Source: Nitrospinaceae bacterium (GTDB lineage: Bacteria > Nitrospinota > Nitrospinia > Nitrospinales > VA-1). Taken from it: DNA of 41,508 nucleotides. The position numbers were made by a program, and so were the translations under genes. The stretch covers positions 1,782,601-1,824,108 of the forward strand of contig CP070799.1 of assembly GCA_020343535.1 (NCBI GenBank). The letters are read 5' to 3'. The notes beneath the pieces are model-generated. The model saw nothing but the letters and a program-made list of their open reading frames with translations. It was not told where the DNA came from and searched no databases. Shown here piece after piece: positions 2,657-35,683 of this stretch (the stretch's first letter is position 1; each line of letters opens with the position of its first letter).

Positions 2657-3505
2657 TCAGGGCATGCTGAGGAGAAGCCAGCCCGCGAGCCCCTTCTGGC
2701 CGTTGCGTTCGCGGTTGCCACCGTTCCACACCGCCACCGCCATCGGCGATGCGCCCTTCAACTGGACGTCGGCGTTGTCCGGGGTTTTGAGATCCCGCCT
2801 GAACACCACCCGCCAGCGATTGTCCTTCCAGACCCCGCGCCCCATGACGTTCTGCTCCTCTTGCGTCGTCAGGGTGCTGAAGCCTTCGGCGTTCAGGTCT
2901 TCCACCGGCGAGCCGCGCTTCGAGGGCTGCACCGTCGGCAGGCCGGAAACCGAACCGGAGCGCACGTGCTTCCCCGGCTCATCTCCTGCCAGGTCTGTCT
3001 GCCACATAGCGCGCCACTGCCAGACATTGACCGGGTCCTCCGCCCCGCCCATGGTAATGGGCGGCAATCCGCGTCCCGGGTGCAGGGGAAACATCAGCGC
3101 CGCCTGGTCGGTGTAATTGGCCGACGGACCGTACTGGAAATCGAGGCTGTCGTCCTCCCATTCCAGGCGCAGGGCCAGAGTGGAGGCGTTCCGCACCGCG
3201 CGGATCTCCACCTCCTTGATCGAAGGGTCCGGCCATTTCGGATTGGTGATCATCTGCGGACCCAGCTCGACGCGGACGGCGGCCGGCCCGCCGGCGGCGG
3301 TCCACTGCGGCGCGTCGGGATCGAGGGGCACCTCGCCCTCGACCCTCTGGACCAGCACTCGCGGCCCGCAACTTTCATCCTCCAAGCAGCTCTCGACGCC
3401 GGGACCGCAGGCGGCGATGGTCAGCAGCGACGCAAGGGCCGCGAGGCCGCCCACTGGACACACTCTCAAGATAGCTAGCATATCTATAGGAAACATGGAT
3501 CGCAT
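2657..3505 (-). CDS. Haem-binding lipoprotein, ethylbenzene dehydrogenase/DMSO-reductase-family gamma-subunit type
   Basis: The fold is that of the b-haem gamma subunits of type II DMSO reductases (ethylbenzene dehydrogenase, perchlorate reductase, nitrite oxidoreductase NxrC). Matching blocks are IKEVEIRAV, LRLEWEDDS, DPVNVWQW, RGSPVEDLNAEGF, GRGVWKDNRWRVVFRR and AVWNGGNRERNGQK. The family binds haem b through a Met and a Lys; M152 (TMGG) and K196 (SKRGSP) are in plausible places, which is my inference. Residues 20-33 form a lipoprotein signal with lipobox IAA-C33, so the protein should be membrane-anchored in the periplasm. The ATG overlaps the stop of the M16 peptidase by one base (TGATG), implying translational coupling. 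No molybdopterin or iron-sulfur partner lies nearby, so its redox partner is unknown. Confidence 0.85.
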   Translation of the reverse strand: MRSMFPIDMLAILRVCPVGGLAALASLLTIAACGPGVESCLEDESCGPRVLVQRVEGEVPLDPDAPQWTAAGGPAAVRVELGPQMITNPKWPDPSIKEVEIRAVRNASTLALRLEWEDDSLDFQYGPSANYTDQAALMFPLHPGRGLPPITMGGAEDPVNVWQWRAMWQTDLAGDEPGKHVRSGSVSGLPTVQPSKRGSPVEDLNAEGFSTLTTQEEQNVMGRGVWKDNRWRVVFRRDLKTPDNADVQLKGASPMAVAVWNGGNRERNGQKGLAGWLLLSMP

Positions 3506-12697: not shown

Positions 12698-12904
12698 CAG
12701 GATCCAGCCGGGGGAGGGAACGCGGTTCCCTTGTGAGCACCCCATCGGGAGCAAAATTGCAATGCCAGGGAAATTATGGTTAACTAACGGCGCCCGGGGC
12801 CGCCCGCCCCGCCCTGATCCACAAAAAGCATTGTCAGAGATCGTGGCCAGGCCCGACCCATAGACATGCCGCTCCTTAGGCGGCGGGCTAAAAAGGACGC
12901 CCCG

Positions 12905-13582
12905 TTGAAAATATCCGTCGTCATTCCTACACTAAATGAGGCCAAGGCGTTGCCCGAAAGCCTGAAAGCGGTGCATTGCCACCGGCCGCACGAGGTGATC
13001 GTCGCCGATGGCGGCAGCGATGACGGAACTCAGGACATCGCCCGCCGGGCGGGCTGCCGCGTGGTTTGTTCGCCCCCCGGACGCGCGGCGCAAATGAACG
13101 CCGGCGCGCTCGCGGCCAGCGGCGAGGTGGTGCTGTTCCTGCATGCCGACAGCCGAGTGAGCGAAAAATGTTTCACCAAGATGGCCCAGGCCATGAACCG
13201 TGACGACCGGGTGGGCGGTGCGTTTTCCCTCTCCATCGAATCGGACCTTTGGTCGTTGCGGCTAATCTCCACCCTCGCCACGCTCCGGTCGCGTTACCTG
13301 CACCTGGTGTACGGCGATCAGGCCATTTTCGTGCGGGCGCGCGCCTTTCACGAACTGGGCGGCTTTTCCCCGCTTCCCATCTGCGAGGATCTGGACTTTT
13401 TCCGCCGCCTGAAAAATCATGGCCCCGTCGTCCTGCTGCGCGAAAAAACCGTCACCTCCGCGCGGCGCTGGCGGGCCGAGGGCGTCTTCTTCACCACGGC
13501 CCGGAACATCGCCATTGCGTCATTGTTTCTCCTCGGATGTTCGCCAAAAATACTCAGCCGCTGGTACCTCGTCATCCGCTAG
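12905..13582 (+). CDS. Family 2 glycosyltransferase, TIGR04283-like
   Basis: GT-A fold transferase. The N-terminus KISVVIPTLNEAKALPESL, the donor-site VADGGSDDGT and the metal-site-like FLHADSR are family signatures, and the layout matches the TIGR04283 group, whose acceptor is not established. The chosen start is TTG at 12905 because AAGGA at 12893-12897 lies seven bases upstream and family members start with MKISVVIPTLNE; an ATG at 12866 would add 13 residues and has no ribosome site. A hydrophobic stretch near the C-terminus (NIAIASLFLLG) may touch the membrane. TIGR04283 proteins are often next to a TIGR04282 partner, which is not present here. Confidence 0.88.
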   Translation: MKISVVIPTLNEAKALPESLKAVHCHRPHEVIVADGGSDDGTQDIARRAGCRVVCSPPGRAAQMNAGALAASGEVVLFLHADSRVSEKCFTKMAQAMNRDDRVGGAFSLSIESDLWSLRLISTLATLRSRYLHLVYGDQAIFVRARAFHELGGFSPLPICEDLDFFRRLKNHGPVVLLREKTVTSARRWRAEGVFFTTARNIAIASLFLLGCSPKILSRWYLVIR

Positions 13583-13654: not shown

Positions 13655-13683
13655 TTGAAACATTATGGTCCAGTCCCTATAAT
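13655..13683 (+). promoter_or_regulatory. Strong sigma-70-type promoter for the redox operon
   Basis: TTGAAA (13655-13660), a 17-bp spacer, and TATAAT (13678-13683): eleven of twelve consensus bases with ideal spacing. Transcription would begin near 13690. It lies in the 135-bp gap after the glycosyltransferase and before the CYCXC-protein gene, and the five following genes are spaced by 1-21 bp, so it probably drives them all. Confidence 0.75.
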
Positions 13684-13717
13684 CGATAGGAAAAGAACCC
13701 CTGTTCACCTCAAAAAC

Positions 13718-14197
13718 ATGCGGACATTACCGCCCATGGGCAAGAAAAAAACCGGCAACAACAAATCGAGAAAAAGCTCCCGGCGGATGTTGGCAGGTTT
13801 CGTCGCCGGCATCGTCGTGGTGCTTTCCGGGGTATACGTCGCCACCAAACCCCCGGTGGTGCCGGTGGCCCCGGCCACGGGCGACCTCATCGAAATACGG
13901 CCCGTCCTTTCTCCGGCGCTGTTCACCGGCAAGGTAGCGCAGGCCTACAAGGTTGCCGCGGAAATCCCCAAAGTCCTCGACGCGCAATTCTGTTATTGCT
14001 ACTGCAAGAAAGAGAAGGGGCACAAGAACCTGCTGACCTGCTTCACCAGCCGCCACGGCTCCAAGTGCGAAACCTGCATCAACGAGGCCCTATATGCGCA
14101 CGAGCTGTACAAGCAGGGCAAGACCATCGACGAGATCGTGGTGGCGGTGGACCGCAAGTTCTACCGCCCTTACCGGAAATCCACTTCCTCCCTATAA
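13718..14197 (+). CDS. CYCXC/PCYCGC-motif membrane-anchored cysteine protein
   Basis: About 159 residues from ATG 13718 (ATG 13736 is a possible alternative; the frame is open further upstream, but that would include the promoter). A basic N-terminus and one transmembrane anchor (about 24-43) place the rest in the periplasm. The C-terminal domain has C92-Y-C94-Y-C96, C108, C117 and C120 (CETC) within the pattern CYCYC...LLTCF...HGxxCxxC..EA, typical of the CYCXC family, some members of which are annotated as selenoproteins. The biochemical role is not established; clustered Cys suggests metal binding or thiol redox. It is followed 15 bp later by a TlpA-type thioredoxin, a likely partner. Confidence 0.83.
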   Translation: MRTLPPMGKKKTGNNKSRKSSRRMLAGFVAGIVVVLSGVYVATKPPVVPVAPATGDLIEIRPVLSPALFTGKVAQAYKVAAEIPKVLDAQFCYCYCKKEKGHKNLLTCFTSRHGSKCETCINEALYAHELYKQGKTIDEIVVAVDRKFYRPYRKSTSSL

Positions 14198-14212
14198 GAT
14201 AACAACGGACCC

Positions 14213-14791
14213 ATGACCACCCAGACGGCGGAAAGCACCCTCGAGAGCAAACCGGTCAGCATCTTCATTCCCTACGCGTTGCTGGTGACCGCCCTGCTGT
14301 CGATTTTCATTATTTCCATCAACAAGGTCGAGCTCGAACCATTCAAGGTCGAGTACCCGGCCGAGGCCTTTCTTGCCCCCGGTTTCGAACTGCCCTCGTT
14401 GAACGGCGGCAAGGTGAACCTCCTGGACTACCGGGGCAAGGTGGTGTTCATCAACTTCTGGGCAACTTGGTGCGGCACCTGCGAAGTGGAAATGCCCTCG
14501 ATGGAAAAACTGTACCAGCGCTTCAAGGACGACGGTTTCGAGATGCTCACCATCAGCATCGACAAGGATCAAAGCCTCATCGAGCCGTTCATGAATAAAT
14601 ACGGGCTGACCTTCCCGGTCCTCCTCGACCCGGAGAGCACAGTGGCCAAGAAGGATTATAAAACCACCGGCGTGCCGGAGACCTTCATCGTCAACCGCGA
14701 GGGGATCATCGTCCACAAGGCCATCGGCCCGCGGCAGTGGGACAGCGATGAAAACATGGCGGCGTTCGCGCAGCTGGTCCTGGGGTCCTGA
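14213..14791 (+). CDS. TlpA/ResA-like membrane-anchored thioredoxin
   Basis: 192 residues: an N-terminal membrane anchor (about 17-36), then a periplasmic thioredoxin fold. The redox site is FWATWCGTCEVEMP with C87 and C90; the cis-proline is in TTGVPETFIV. The sequence between Cys site and cis-Pro has the insert typical of TlpA/ResA/CcmG proteins. Such proteins reduce cysteines in exported apocytochromes or copper-site proteins. Its place immediately after the CYCXC gene and before a cytochrome b suggests a role in keeping the CYCXC cysteines reduced; this is inference. The stop is one base before the next ATG. Confidence 0.92.
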   Translation: MTTQTAESTLESKPVSIFIPYALLVTALLSIFIISINKVELEPFKVEYPAEAFLAPGFELPSLNGGKVNLLDYRGKVVFINFWATWCGTCEVEMPSMEKLYQRFKDDGFEMLTISIDKDQSLIEPFMNKYGLTFPVLLDPESTVAKKDYKTTGVPETFIVNREGIIVHKAIGPRQWDSDENMAAFAQLVLGS

Positions 14792-14792
14792 A

Positions 14793-15194
14793 ATGATTCC
14801 GACCAAGCTGCTTCCCGCGTTCGCCTTATCGATCCTCGCCTCGCTCGCCCTGGCTTCGCTGGCGGCAGCCCACGGCGGTGCGCATAAAAAGCCGGAAGAG
14901 GCGCAAACCGCGCCCGCCCCGGCGGCGGACGCCCCCTCCCCCTACGCCCTTGAACCCACCCCCGAAGAAACGCCGCTGGACGACGACCTGCTTTCGCCCT
15001 TCGCGCGCGGCGTCATGGAAGACCACGAGATGGAAGAAGGCATGGGCAACGCCATGGACGGCCACGCCATGCCCGAGGTGGAACTTTCCCATCATACGCT
15101 CGTCTCACCATCGAAACCCGGTTACCCCTGGGCGGTGGCGGTGACGGCGCTTTCGGGCTTGTTGTTCGGGGTCCTGGCCATAAGGCGCAGGTGA
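14793..15194 (+). CDS. Exported His/Met-rich protein with C-terminal membrane anchor
   Basis: 133 residues. A signal peptide (cut near AAA-HGG, residue 26) is followed by a Pro/Ala-rich acidic linker, a stretch rich in Met and His (M75, H78, M80, M84, M88, H91, M93, H100, H101), and a final hydrophobic helix (112-130) ending in RRR. The layout (signal, low-complexity region, terminal helix plus arginines) resembles C-terminal sorting tags such as GlyGly-CTERM/PEP-CTERM, although no such motif is perfect. The His/Met run could bind copper or another soft metal, an inference. It lies between the TlpA gene (one base) and cytochrome b (21 bp). The start at 14793 is chosen because the extension to 14748 would overlap TlpA. 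Confidence 0.75.
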   Translation: MIPTKLLPAFALSILASLALASLAAAHGGAHKKPEEAQTAPAPAADAPSPYALEPTPEETPLDDDLLSPFARGVMEDHEMEEGMGNAMDGHAMPEVELSHHTLVSPSKPGYPWAVAVTALSGLLFGVLAIRRR

Positions 15195-15215
15195 CTCTCC
15201 GGAAAGGGAGATCCC

Positions 15216-16229
15216 ATGGCAAATAAATTTTCAGAGATCCTCAAGGAACGGCTGGGCGCGGGCGAACTCGATTACGAGATCGGCGAACACGCCAACACCA
15301 TTCCCTATTCGCTGGGCGGCATGACACTCGCCTCCCTGGGCCTCTTGATCCTCACCGGGATGCTGCTCGCCCAGTTCTACATTCCGGGGCCAGAGAGCGC
15401 CAACCAGAGCCTGCATTACCTGAGCGACCAGGTGTTTCTCGGCTGGTACCTGCGCGGCGTCCATTTCTGGGCCGCCGAAGTGCTGACGGTGACCCTGATC
15501 CTGCACATGATGCGGGTCTTCTGGACCGCGTCCTACAAGAAGCCGCGCGAAGTCAACTGGCTGGTGGGCGTCGTTCTGCTGCTCCTGATGGTCGGCCTGC
15601 TGTTCACCGGCACCGTGATCAAATGGGATCAGGAGGCCTACGAGGCGCTCGCGCATTTCACCTGGGTGGGCGAAAAACTCGGCATCCTGGGTCTACCGCT
15701 CACCGAACGATTCGCCGAGGGAGTGCCGATGGTGAGCCGAGTGTACATGTGGCACATCTCCCTGCTTCCCATCGTGACCCTGCCCGTGCTCGGGCTGCAC
15801 CTTTTCTACATCCGCCACCACAAGCTCTCCCCGCTGCCGGAATCCCCCGCGGGAGGCAGGACGATCCGCTTCACCGATCACCTGCTGTATCTTCAGAAAG
15901 CCGGCGCCGGCGTCGTCACCCTGATCTGCCTTCTCGCCCTAGTGATCGCCCCGCCGCTCGGCCAAGCGCCCGTGCATGGGCTGGAAGTCACCAAGCCGCC
16001 GTGGCAATTCGTCTGGATCTACGCCCTGGAAAACCTGTGGGTGCCCTCGCTGATCGTGGCGCCATTGCTCATCGTTTTGGCTCTCGTTCTGGTTCCGTTC
16101 GTGGACCGCAGCGAAAAGCGGCACTGGCGCGACCGCCCGGTGGCGGTGGCGGTCCTGGCGCTGACGCTTCTCCTGATGGGCGGCCTCATCATCTGGGGCA
16201 AAGTGACCACCATGACGCACTCCATGTGA
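15216..16229 (+). CDS. Cytochrome b, b6-type, full-length with fused C-terminal part
   Basis: Quinol-oxidising cytochrome bc/b6f-type haem subunit, 337 residues, about eight membrane helices. Bis-haem ligands are H83/H97 (13 residues between) and H180/H195 (14 between); the longer second interval is the b6 rather than the mitochondrial pattern. The GTVIKWDQEAY loop matches the b6 WDQ region. The place of the quinol-site PEWY motif holds PPWQ (261-264), so the catalytic glutamate is missing. No Rieske protein or cytochrome c gene is next to it. AAAGGGAG precedes the ATG. It is the fourth gene of the redox operon, seven bases before the glutaredoxin-like gene. Confidence 0.9.
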   Translation: MANKFSEILKERLGAGELDYEIGEHANTIPYSLGGMTLASLGLLILTGMLLAQFYIPGPESANQSLHYLSDQVFLGWYLRGVHFWAAEVLTVTLILHMMRVFWTASYKKPREVNWLVGVVLLLLMVGLLFTGTVIKWDQEAYEALAHFTWVGEKLGILGLPLTERFAEGVPMVSRVYMWHISLLPIVTLPVLGLHLFYIRHHKLSPLPESPAGGRTIRFTDHLLYLQKAGAGVVTLICLLALVIAPPLGQAPVHGLEVTKPPWQFVWIYALENLWVPSLIVAPLLIVLALVLVPFVDRSEKRHWRDRPVAVAVLALTLLLMGGLIIWGKVTTMTHSM

Positions 16230-16236
16230 CCCCCGA

Positions 16237-16500
16237 ATGCTCCCGGCACTCACTCTCGAAATGCTCAGCAAGGCCGACTGTTCGCTGTGCGACACCGCTA
16301 AAGCCACTCTGGAGAAAGTGCTGAGGGATTACCCCGGCGTCTCACTGACCATGACCGACATCGAAACCGACGCCGGCCTGTTCGAGCAATATAAAGAAAA
16401 AATTCCGGTGCTGAGAATCAACGGGGAGGACCGGTTTGTCTACAAAGTGCATGAAACCACGCTACGCAAAAACCTCGACCAGCTGATGAAAGACGCCTAG
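16237..16500 (+). CDS. Glutaredoxin-like protein (DUF836 type)
   Basis: 87 residues with a thioredoxin-like fold: an N-terminal strand leading to C15-S-L-C18 (ADCSLCDTA), then the conserved IPVLRING strand containing the cis-proline. Length and motif fit the DUF836 glutaredoxin-like family; no signal peptide, so cytoplasmic. It is the last gene of the redox operon, seven bases after cytochrome b. The substrate is unknown. Confidence 0.87.
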   Translation: MLPALTLEMLSKADCSLCDTAKATLEKVLRDYPGVSLTMTDIETDAGLFEQYKEKIPVLRINGEDRFVYKVHETTLRKNLDQLMKDA

Positions 16501-16568: not shown

Positions 16569-16874
16569 ATGGTGGAGAAAAAATCGTTGAACGCAGAGGA
16601 ACTGGCGGAACAACTCGCGGCCCAGGCCCCGGAATGGAAGACGGGGAAAAACGAAAAGGGCGTTCCCTACATCGAACGGGTGAAACACGCGGCCAAATAT
16701 ATGGAGGGCATCGAATTCGTCCGCCGGGTTGCCGAACTGGCCGAGGAAAACAACCACCACCCCGACATTTTCATCCACTACAAGCGCATCACCGTGCGCT
16801 ACTGGACCCACAGCGCAAGCGGCGTTACCCTGGCGGACGTGCAAATGGCAAACAAGGTCGACACCCTTTTCTAA
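16569..16874 (+). CDS. Pterin-4a-carbinolamine dehydratase (4a-hydroxytetrahydrobiopterin dehydratase)
   Basis: 101 residues, the normal length. Converts 4a-hydroxytetrahydropterin to the quinonoid dihydropterin, recycling pterin cofactors. Family signature residues are EENNHHPDIF (H63, H64, P65), Y71 and the later THSASGVTLADV block with H81. No phenylalanine hydroxylase gene is in the window, and in many bacteria the physiological pterin partner of this protein is unclear. It is transcribed with, or just before, the RND exporter gene that starts 64 bp downstream. Confidence 0.92.
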   Translation: MVEKKSLNAEELAEQLAAQAPEWKTGKNEKGVPYIERVKHAAKYMEGIEFVRRVAELAEENNHHPDIFIHYKRITVRYWTHSASGVTLADVQMANKVDTLF

Positions 16875-33686: not shown

Positions 33687-35423
33687 TTAGCTAAGTTGGA
33701 GGAACTCGTTGACTAGCTTTAGATCTTCGCCTCGGTGAATTTCCAGCCATCCTTGATGGATCTCCATGAAATGGACGCGAAAACCGCGGTCGATCATCTC
33801 CTGGATGATGTCCGTGAAGTTCAGGCGCGACACATCGTCGGCCTCGTGGAACCGTCCCTGGAAGTTCTCGGTGCAGTCCTGATAGGTCGCCATCAGCTGT
33901 TCGGCGCCAGTGCGCGAGAACCGGGCGAGCCCGATGAATTCGTGCGTGGCCGTCTCCGGCGGCAAATTGGCGCCAATTCGCTCGACGAGGTGCTCTCCGG
34001 CGAAGCTGATCCTGCGGCGGCTCGGCCGGTGCTTGCGCTTGCTGACGATGAAATCCAGCGCCTTTCCGCCTTCATACTTGTGATACTGGGTGGTGTTGTC
34101 GGCCACCAGCACGATGTCCTCGCGGCAGTCGAGGAGCTTGCCGATGATGTGATCCTCAAGAAGGATATCGGCGTAAAGCATCAGAAAACCGTTGTGCATT
34201 TTATCGCGCGCCACCATCAGGCTGTGCATCATCGAGCCGTTCTCATAATCCTTGTTCTCCAGGATGGCCACCCCCTCGGCGCGCATTTGATCGCTGGCAT
34301 AGCCCGCCACCACGGTGATGTCGTTCAGGTGGTTGGTCGCGAGAGAGGCGACCTGCCGGTCGAGCAGCGTGCGCCCGGCGATATCCAGCATCGCCTTGGG
34401 CCGGCCGTTCAGCAGGGGTTTCAGCACTTCGTCCTCGCCGGCGGCGGGGATGATGACCGCAATGTTGCCCGCCTGGCCTTCGCGCTGGTCCTTTTCCTTG
34501 ACGTCGAGAAAACCCACCGCGCGGAAGATATCCCGCACCGGGGCGCACAGAGGATCGGCCTCCAGCGACCGCTGGTTGAGCAGAATGGCCCGGCTGACCT
34601 CGACCATCGACTGGTACGCCGCGCGCAGAAGATGGTTGGCGTAGATCAGCACGCGGAACCCCTTTTGGGCCAGCTCGTCCTCGGTGAGGTGGTTGTAGGT
34701 GGTGGGCACGCAAACGAGCGGCTTGTCTAGACCGAGCTCCGTGAGAAGATCGCCGTAAGCCTCGGCAAAGCGGAAAAGCTCGTCCGGATTCTTGGATTTC
34801 GAGTGAATCATGATGCCGTCGACACCGGCCTGCAGGTAGGTGCGCGCCCGGGAAAGCGCATCTTCCAGGGGAAATCCAGCAATGAAACTCTCGATTCTCG
34901 CGATTATGAGAAAATCGCCCGTCAACTGGACCGCCTTGCCGCGGCGGATTTTTTGCGCGAACACCTCCGGGTCCTGCAGGGTCTGCGAAACGCCGGCTTC
35001 CAGGCTGTTCCGCTTCGGGAACACCTTGTCCTCAATGATCACCGCCGAAACGCCGGCGCGCTCCAGCTTCGACACCATGTATTCGAAGTTGTTCGCGTCG
35101 CCGCCGGTGTCGCCGTCGACAATCATCGGCTTTTCGGTGACCGCCAGAATTTCCTGGATCGTCGTCAGGCGCGAGTCGAACCCCACAACTTCGATATCGG
35201 GATGGCCCTTCGACGCCGAGTCCGTCAGGCTGCTTTCCCAGAGGGCGTCGAACTCGCGGATCACCGGCTGGCCCTTATCCTCGCCCTCGATGCGGGCGCT
35301 GCCGCCAACGATGCCGCTCAAGCCGTTGTGCGCCTCGATGACGCGGATCAGCCGGTTTTCTCGGAGCAAGGCTTTGAGCTTGCCGCGTCTTGCTTCGGGC
35401 AGAATGTTGTTTAGAAGGGTCAT
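33687..35423 (-). CDS. aepX: Phosphoenolpyruvate mutase fused to a nucleotidyltransferase-like domain
   Basis: Phosphoenolpyruvate mutase makes the C-P bond of phosphonates. The N-terminal domain (to about 310) has the metal-site DGDTGG (103-108) and the diagnostic E131-D-K ... N139-S140 motif (EDKVFPKRNS), which separates mutases from methylisocitrate and other lyases. From about 320 a nucleotidyltransferase-like domain follows (IPAAGEDEVLKPLLNGRPKAMLDIAG), where the expected glycine/arginine nucleotide loop is altered. Such fusions are known in phosphonate cytidylyltransferases (PntC type). The start ATG 35423 overlaps the stop of the upstream 87-residue gene (ATGA); the open frame to 35573 is dismissed. 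No phosphonopyruvate decarboxylase or transaminase is in the window, so the product is unknown. Confidence 0.9.
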   Translation of the reverse strand: MTLLNNILPEARRGKLKALLRENRLIRVIEAHNGLSGIVGGSARIEGEDKGQPVIREFDALWESSLTDSASKGHPDIEVVGFDSRLTTIQEILAVTEKPMIVDGDTGGDANNFEYMVSKLERAGVSAVIIEDKVFPKRNSLEAGVSQTLQDPEVFAQKIRRGKAVQLTGDFLIIARIESFIAGFPLEDALSRARTYLQAGVDGIMIHSKSKNPDELFRFAEAYGDLLTELGLDKPLVCVPTTYNHLTEDELAQKGFRVLIYANHLLRAAYQSMVEVSRAILLNQRSLEADPLCAPVRDIFRAVGFLDVKEKDQREGQAGNIAVIIPAAGEDEVLKPLLNGRPKAMLDIAGRTLLDRQVASLATNHLNDITVVAGYASDQMRAEGVAILENKDYENGSMMHSLMVARDKMHNGFLMLYADILLEDHIIGKLLDCREDIVLVADNTTQYHKYEGGKALDFIVSKRKHRPSRRRISFAGEHLVERIGANLPPETATHEFIGLARFSRTGAEQLMATYQDCTENFQGRFHEADDVSRLNFTDIIQEMIDRGFRVHFMEIHQGWLEIHRGEDLKLVNEFLQLS

Positions 35424-35683
35424 GTTTTGACGCTCAATCGCTCTCGCACCCAGGAAGGGAGATAAACCGCCTCCAGATCGAACCGGGAAAGCGCTTCCAG
35501 GATGATATTGACTTGCTCGGCGGGGTGCAACCGCCGGTCGAGAAGGATAAGGTCCTGCCCTCTCAACCGGCAATAACCGCCGCGCGTGGGAAACTCATCG
35601 TCGCCCAGGTTGCCCGCCTCAATGGCGATGGACAACCGGGCGGCGGTGTTTTTCAGATCCTCCAACTGGTGTTCTGGGTCCAT
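35420..35683 (-). CDS. Small conserved-looking protein of unknown function, 87 residues
   Basis: Soluble, with a core LGDDEFPTRGGYCRLRGQDLILLDRRLHPAEQVNIILEALSRFDLEAVYLP. This pattern (GGxCRLRG, then LLDRRLxPxEQ, then FDLExVYLP) resembles a short family of unknown function I recall from other bacteria, but I cannot name it. The stop overlaps the aepX start as ATGA, which supports translation and coupling. There is no good Shine-Dalgarno site before ATG 35683; an upstream reading frame with a good one is noted among the findings. It lies 89 bp after rseP. Confidence 0.75.
   Translation of the reverse strand: MDPEHQLEDLKNTAARLSIAIEAGNLGDDEFPTRGGYCRLRGQDLILLDRRLHPAEQVNIILEALSRFDLEAVYLPSWVRERLSVKT

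Follow-up and report, generated by a model that had tools for sequence, protein, structure and literature searches.

A conserved five-gene operon of Nitrospinales

The genome of a Nitrospinaceae bacterium (single record, 2.53 Mb; nearest relatives in the Nitrospinota, order Nitrospinales) possesses a row of five plus-strand genes for redox proteins, located in the 41,508-nucleotide stretch of contig CP070799.1 that was analyzed here as a whole (the window). They encode a six-cysteine protein of the PCYCGC/CYCXC family (CYC, 13736..14197), a TlpA/ResA-like anchored thioredoxin (14213..14791), a small protein rich in histidine and methionine (HM protein, 14793..15194), a b6-type cytochrome b (15216..16229) and a DUF836 glutaredoxin-like protein (16237..16500). 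A preliminary description of this DNA had placed these genes 1-21 bp apart; indeed, all five open reading frames (ORFs) are present, separated by 15, 1, 21 and 7 bp. They follow a sigma-70-type promoter, TTGAAA-N17-TATAAT (13655..13683, plus strand), which matches 11 of the 12 consensus bases and is the top match of the region. This element, also proposed earlier, has its counterparts in relatives: both boxes are kept in the locus of a congener (L022), and two further loci of the family (L032 and L035) carry TTGAAT-N17-TATAAT, with one base changed; the promoter is found in other genera, too. Note that position 13655 is the -35 box and not a start codon; a long ORF starting from the TTG at 13655 begins within the promoter, and the conserved start of the coding sequence is the ATG at 13736.

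CYC consists of an N-terminal membrane helix and an outer domain with six cysteines and two histidines, and exceeds both curated cut-offs (PF13798, 42.6 bits, cut-off 25; NF041379, "CYCXC family (seleno)protein", 124 bits, cut-off 90). Cys86/88/90/102/111/114, which comprise the CYCXC and the CxxC cysteines, are conserved together with His96 and His107 in nearly all members across phyla. Compared with the PCYCGC/CYCXC (OS_HP4) family, the protein is a Cys form that has a membrane helix instead of a lipobox and differs by its fixed partnership with TlpA and cytochrome b. Its AF2 model is usable (pLDDT 83) but matched no PDB structure at E≤0.001, and a sequence search of the PDB gave no match either. 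In the PCYCGC genes of Thermomicrobium roseum (L101, 6908-7354) and of a metagenome-assembled genome (MAG) of Chloroflexi (L081, G061) a TGA codon occurs in frame, and that of T. roseum stands where the second CxxC has its first Cys; these genes are either selenocysteine candidates or broken.

The thioredoxin has the active site WCGTC and belongs to the superfamily PF00578 (AhpC-TSA/Redoxin, 103 bits). ResA-like thioredoxins are its closest solved structures, although it stays below the NCBIfam equivalog cut-offs (124 of 170 bits for ResA, 80.5 of 230 bits for TlpA). The HM protein, to which no Pfam or NCBIfam family could be assigned, has a signal peptide with the predicted mature N-terminus A|HGGAH, an acidic segment rich in His and Met, and a C-terminal membrane helix; as it is a low-complexity protein, the label "metal-binding" derives entirely from its composition and its mature N-terminal histidine. 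The glutaredoxin-like protein (CSLC; PF05768, 56.5 bits) has no visible export signal and may act separately from the other products of the operon. A pterin-4a-carbinolamine dehydratase gene (16569..16874, plus strand, PF01329) starts 68 bp past the glutaredoxin gene, but it is doubtful that its product is a functional member of the module.

The window genome contains runs of 100 N (G000 C1; L099, L164, L165), including some near a Rieske gene and within the canonical cytochrome b region, and is therefore a stitched MAG assembly. The operon itself is free of such runs and recurs in independent assemblies; the closest public contig bearing it comes from the MAG SZUA-350. Among the 60 relatives searched, nearly all genomes of the same order encode a close cytochrome b (62-90% identity). 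PF13798 and this cytochrome b share one contig in 46 of 55 Nitrospinales genomes, our own included (co-location was counted by hand), and the remaining cases are mostly contig breaks or incomplete MAGs. As the preliminary description had proposed, the gene order was compared among relatives, and it proved to be kept in the fetched Nitrospinales loci, some 50 in number: CYC, TlpA, HM protein, cytochrome b and glutaredoxin follow one another, the glutaredoxin gene being next to cytochrome b in most loci and the pterin dehydratase usually coming after it. An ORF of the HM design is situated between TlpA and cytochrome b in all 49 Nitrospinales loci having both (A|H in 41 of them); these ORFs encode a signal peptide, ~6 His and ~5 Met in the acidic part and a conserved KG...A...T motif in the C-terminal helix. 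This conservation is far beyond chance. Five more distant relatives of the class have no close cytochrome b, and the CYC gene is still present in three of them; in one class relative it lies directly behind a CusA-CusC-CusB-type efflux operon.

A separate clade of cytochromes b without a Rieske gene

The cytochrome b (PF00033, 105 bits) resembles its counterparts in b6 and bc1 complexes in the Pfam match, in seven hydrophobic helices, in b6 chains as the best PDB matches and in the four axial histidines for two haems (His83, 97, 180 and 195), which are present in every row of an alignment of 92 sequences (including 75 other clade members and 16 other cytochromes b). However, it differs from them in several respects. 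A Pfam scan revealed no Rieske or cytochrome c gene within the operon, in agreement with the preliminary description, and none intervenes in the conserved Nitrospinales order or stands beside it in the relatives. Of the two findings that would have refuted that description, loss of the gene order in relatives and a Rieske or cytochrome c gene close by, neither was made. The PEWY position of the quinol site (15996..16007, plus strand) reads PPWQ in all 46 Nitrospinales sequences, and other members of the clade mostly have PPW or PLW there (P261 in 75 of 75 clade rows), whereas Rieske-adjacent unsplit paralogues of some Nitrospinota read PEWY. His147 occurs without exception in the 75 other clade members, while 14 of the 16 other cytochromes b have Val, Ile or Met instead; judging from the topology of b6f, this histidine is expected to sit in the periplasmic cd loop. 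In a maximum-likelihood tree, the Nitrospinales proteins form one fully supported group that is joined with an outgroup clade (87/88). The other cytochromes b lie outside, and long-branch rows make the exact root of the clade uncertain. Furthermore, the protein scores below every cut-off of the NCBIfam models for b6, bc1, ExtP, SoxC and actinobacterial QcrB (for ExtP, the cytochrome b of the selenite/tellurite operon, NF040969, 160.5 bits versus a cut-off of 290).

Elsewhere in these genomes there are canonical split b6/subunit IV genes as well as Rieske genes, and an unlinked Rieske or cytochrome c partner is possible. As a genomic reading, an ordinary bc complex was rejected in view of the missing Rieske gene, PPWQ in place of PEWY and the separate clade.

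A second, unsplit b/b6-type cytochrome b was noted in Nitrospina gracilis, elsewhere in the genome and without its operon (PMC3578206). It is very probably the gene studied here; in a one-contig relative (G002), the sole unsplit copy found is of the operon type. That account (PMC3578206) covered the existence of a cytochrome b of this kind, but not its operon, clade and relatives.

Homologues of this cytochrome b (39-46% identity) are sparse in other phyla: they were found in 10 of 397 Actinomycetota and 12 of 400 Chloroflexota, in Bipolaricaulota and on plasmids of Streptomyces and Pseudarthrobacter. As ORF finding in high-GC outgroups gave some spurious ORFs, claims about neighbours rest on Pfam calls, inspection and a scan for small exported proteins ending in a membrane helix, which covered 29 loci from outside Nitrospinota. 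The scan flagged 25 of the 29 loci; the flag in L073 is a polytopic protein, so that 24 keep an adjacent small exported anchored protein, and 19 of these 24 partners have a histidine at the predicted mature N-terminus (A|H, G|H or S|H). No such partner occurs in 14 other cytochrome b loci, where the flags are subunit IV-like proteins. In most Actinomycetota the partner is encoded upstream of cytochrome b, as in Nitrospinota, and in Chloroflexota downstream, with an Ig-like middle; because of these differences in position and design, we do not claim homology of the two types. In two loci, L070 and L076, the first cytochrome b gene is followed downstream by a second one with PPWPYYF and a very long branch.

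Copper genes near the relatives and a possible role of the operon

The neighbourhood of the outgroup cytochromes b was evaluated in 18 genomes from phylum draws, chosen regardless of context, with distances transcribed by hand from tables. A P-type ATPase is encoded within 20 kb in 13 of the 18 genomes (1.6 expected, P = 7e-11) and a cupredoxin within 8 kb in 10 (0.9 expected, P = 9e-10); Rieske genes are not enriched (one within 8 kb, 0.5 expected). Several of the ATPases bear CPCALGLA and MxxSS, like Cu(I) ATPases. The plasmid copies, in Actinomycetota hosts and on metal-resistance plasmids, accompany genes for "metal-sensitive" regulators, YHS and DUF2933 proteins. In some loci (L070, 4471-5786; L073, L076, L144-L147, L150), a cupredoxin, in some cases with a C..CC motif, is paired near cytochrome b with a polytopic protein with an NPCA motif, for which Pfam gives weak SfLAP matches or nothing.

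Relatives of CYC are likewise found among copper genes. In Burkholderiaceae they belong to CusA-copper-binding-DsbD-PCYCGC clusters with genes for multicopper oxidase, TlpA and CopD, in Exiguobacterium to CopC/CopD/P-ATPase clusters, and another plasmid PCYCGC gene adjoins a heavy-metal ATPase gene; two of the six plasmid PCYCGC loci inspected are without such neighbours. A Chloroflexota locus that encodes cytochrome b, an AHG protein, a PCYCGC protein and a COX2/cupredoxin-domain protein within 4 kb is the meeting point of these two independent lines.

We tentatively propose, at somewhat less than even confidence, that the operon specifies a redox module bound to the inner membrane at its outer face, where it connects the quinone pool with copper and protein thiols of the periplasm. 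Its function, as far as genomic context suggests, is perhaps that of a cupric reductase. In general, b-type haem pairs carry electrons across the membrane. Here, the two-haem cytochrome b would oxidize quinol unaided by a Rieske protein and hand the electrons, at the periplasmic face where His147 is expected, to Cu(II) held by its dedicated partner, the HM protein. The resulting Cu(I) would be captured by the six cysteines of CYC, whose thiols TlpA would keep reduced. From there it would be supplied to copper enzymes, for example NirK and cupredoxins, or be detoxified. In the preliminary description, the genes had been proposed to form a module moving electrons from quinol to cysteine or copper centres. 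The single module and its copper/thiol setting are borne out, the latter through relatives of two of the parts in other phyla, while the flow of electrons itself, copper as the substrate, the formation of a complex and CYC as the copper acceptor are what we infer from them.

Precedents are quinol-dependent Cu(II) reduction in bacteria, CcoG and the reduction of copper-site thiols by TlpA (PMC7558416). The proposed outcome, membrane-bound copper reduction for the supply of cuproenzymes, resembles that of CcoG and the PepSY_TM protein CrpH (PMC7558416, PMC13038864), but these proteins, which contain iron-sulfur clusters (CcoG) or are of the PepSY_TM haem type (CrpH), are unrelated to those of the operon. 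The assembly of copper sites by TlpA, ScoI and PCuAC also involves a TlpA-like thioredoxin in a copper setting (PMC7558416). In contrast to that system, the operon encodes no member of the Sco or PCuAC families and has cytochrome b and CYC in their place.

Several observations weigh against a copper-reducing module. The link to copper is drawn from distant relatives (39-46% identity for cytochrome b, 22-43% for CYC), the window showed no copper gene adjacent to the operon, and CYC and the HM protein are putative metal binders. The P values given above overstate significance, because they assume random placement while metal genes cluster. The two loci whose partners closely resemble the Nitrospinota HM protein, L139 and L140, lie near genes for cytochrome c maturation or CcdA instead of copper genes: L139 encodes CcdA near cytochrome b, and L140 (544-5258) a divergent FtrD-like protein (PF10080) along with apparent CcmE and CcmF (these two by inspection only). 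Finally, selenocysteine is known to replace cysteine in CYC (PMC13188914), and this points to redox chemistry at thiols rather than to the storage of metal.

Such selenocysteine forms keep alive an explanation without any role for copper, in which cytochrome b would pass electrons from the thiols of CYC and TlpA to quinone, like DsbB, or feed them with electrons for protein disulfide exchange. Three thiol proteins in a single operon would fit, as would an actinobacterial locus (L135) in which genes for a DUF836 glutaredoxin, a polytopic membrane protein, a TlpA-like protein, an HM-like protein and cytochrome b stand in a row. We nevertheless regard this explanation as improbable. Going by usual potentials, quinol is not a strong enough donor to reduce TlpA, and the copper neighbourhoods of both CYC and cytochrome b would be left unexplained. 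No PF02683 (DsbD/CcdA) protein is encoded in the operon. DsbD is encoded elsewhere, once per genome, in all nine genomes tested, which weakens the idea that cytochrome b replaces CcdA/DsbD. Comparably unlikely, if slightly less so, is a quinone:cupredoxin (or cytochrome c) oxidoreductase with a carrier encoded elsewhere, acting for example in the reverse electron transport of nitrite oxidizers, with CYC and TlpA serving its assembly. Nitrite oxidizers have to move electrons in reverse, from cytochrome c to quinone; cupredoxins have been put forward as carriers in this setting (PMC3578206), and 10 of the 18 outgroup genomes have one near cytochrome b. However, the Nitrospinales operon encodes no carrier protein, the canonical split b6/subunit IV complex is already available for this role (PMC3578206), and some outgroup copies belong to Actinomycetota, where they are found on plasmids that also bear metal-resistance genes.

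We give less credence to a helper of cytochrome c maturation or oxidase assembly, in which a ResA/CcmG-like TlpA and CYC would keep the cysteines of haem or CuA sites reduced and cytochrome b would supply the electrons. The thioredoxin is indeed closest to ResA, and the surroundings of L139 and L140 would be in line with this role, but these loci form one deep subclade of the tree, the equivalog cut-offs for ResA and TlpA are not reached, and cbb3-type haem-copper oxidases were detected in just a few Nitrospinia genomes (PMC10839748). Least probable seems a regulon of separate redox genes that are held together by expression and share no pathway. The glutaredoxin and the pterin dehydratase, which have no obvious periplasmic role, would be accommodated, whereas the gene order fixed throughout an order, the small exported partner that stays beside cytochrome b across phyla and the renewed meeting of CYC and cytochrome b in Chloroflexota speak against it.

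If the proposed link between quinone pool and periplasmic copper is extended to the relatives, the cytochromes b with their partners would constitute an undescribed family of haem-b quinol:copper oxidoreductases. Its hallmarks would be a Rieske-less b6-type cytochrome b and an anchored partner presenting a periplasmic N-terminal histidine. It would extend over at least four phyla, and in Nitrospinales it would be firmly associated with CYC as the thiol acceptor of copper and with TlpA as the reductant of CYC. We consider this generalization rather unlikely as it stands. The gene set in this order had been thought undescribed, and no account of the operon was found in the open-access papers searched; one in a subscription journal is possible.

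Neighbouring genes and implications

Upstream of the promoter, the window encodes a glycosyltransferase of the arsenosugar-biosynthesis type (12866-13582; TIGR04283, 244 bits, cut-off 182), which is found near the operon in many relatives as well, sometimes on the opposite strand. Farther away there are an exported protein (2657-3505) resembling the haem b subunit of type II DMSO-reductase enzymes (TIGR03477, below the cut-off), possibly an NxrC-like subunit, and a phosphoenolpyruvate mutase fused with a nucleotidyltransferase-like domain (33687-35573), which suggests phosphonate-type chemistry. PADLOC returned nothing.

The operon is present in nearly all marine nitrite-oxidizing Nitrospinales and suggests an undescribed membrane machine that connects the respiratory chain with copper or thiols outside the membrane. 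If this is true, there would be a setting and a testable job for the second cytochrome b of Nitrospina, the unsplit one reported in 2013, and for the PCYCGC proteins, a family of unknown function. It would also follow that a b6-type core can operate with another kind of partner protein, apart from Rieske complexes. If copper is reduced with electrons from quinol, the respiratory chain would be connected with periplasmic copper by way of haem b, through proteins encoded in the main marine nitrite oxidizers and on actinobacterial plasmids that bear metal-resistance genes.

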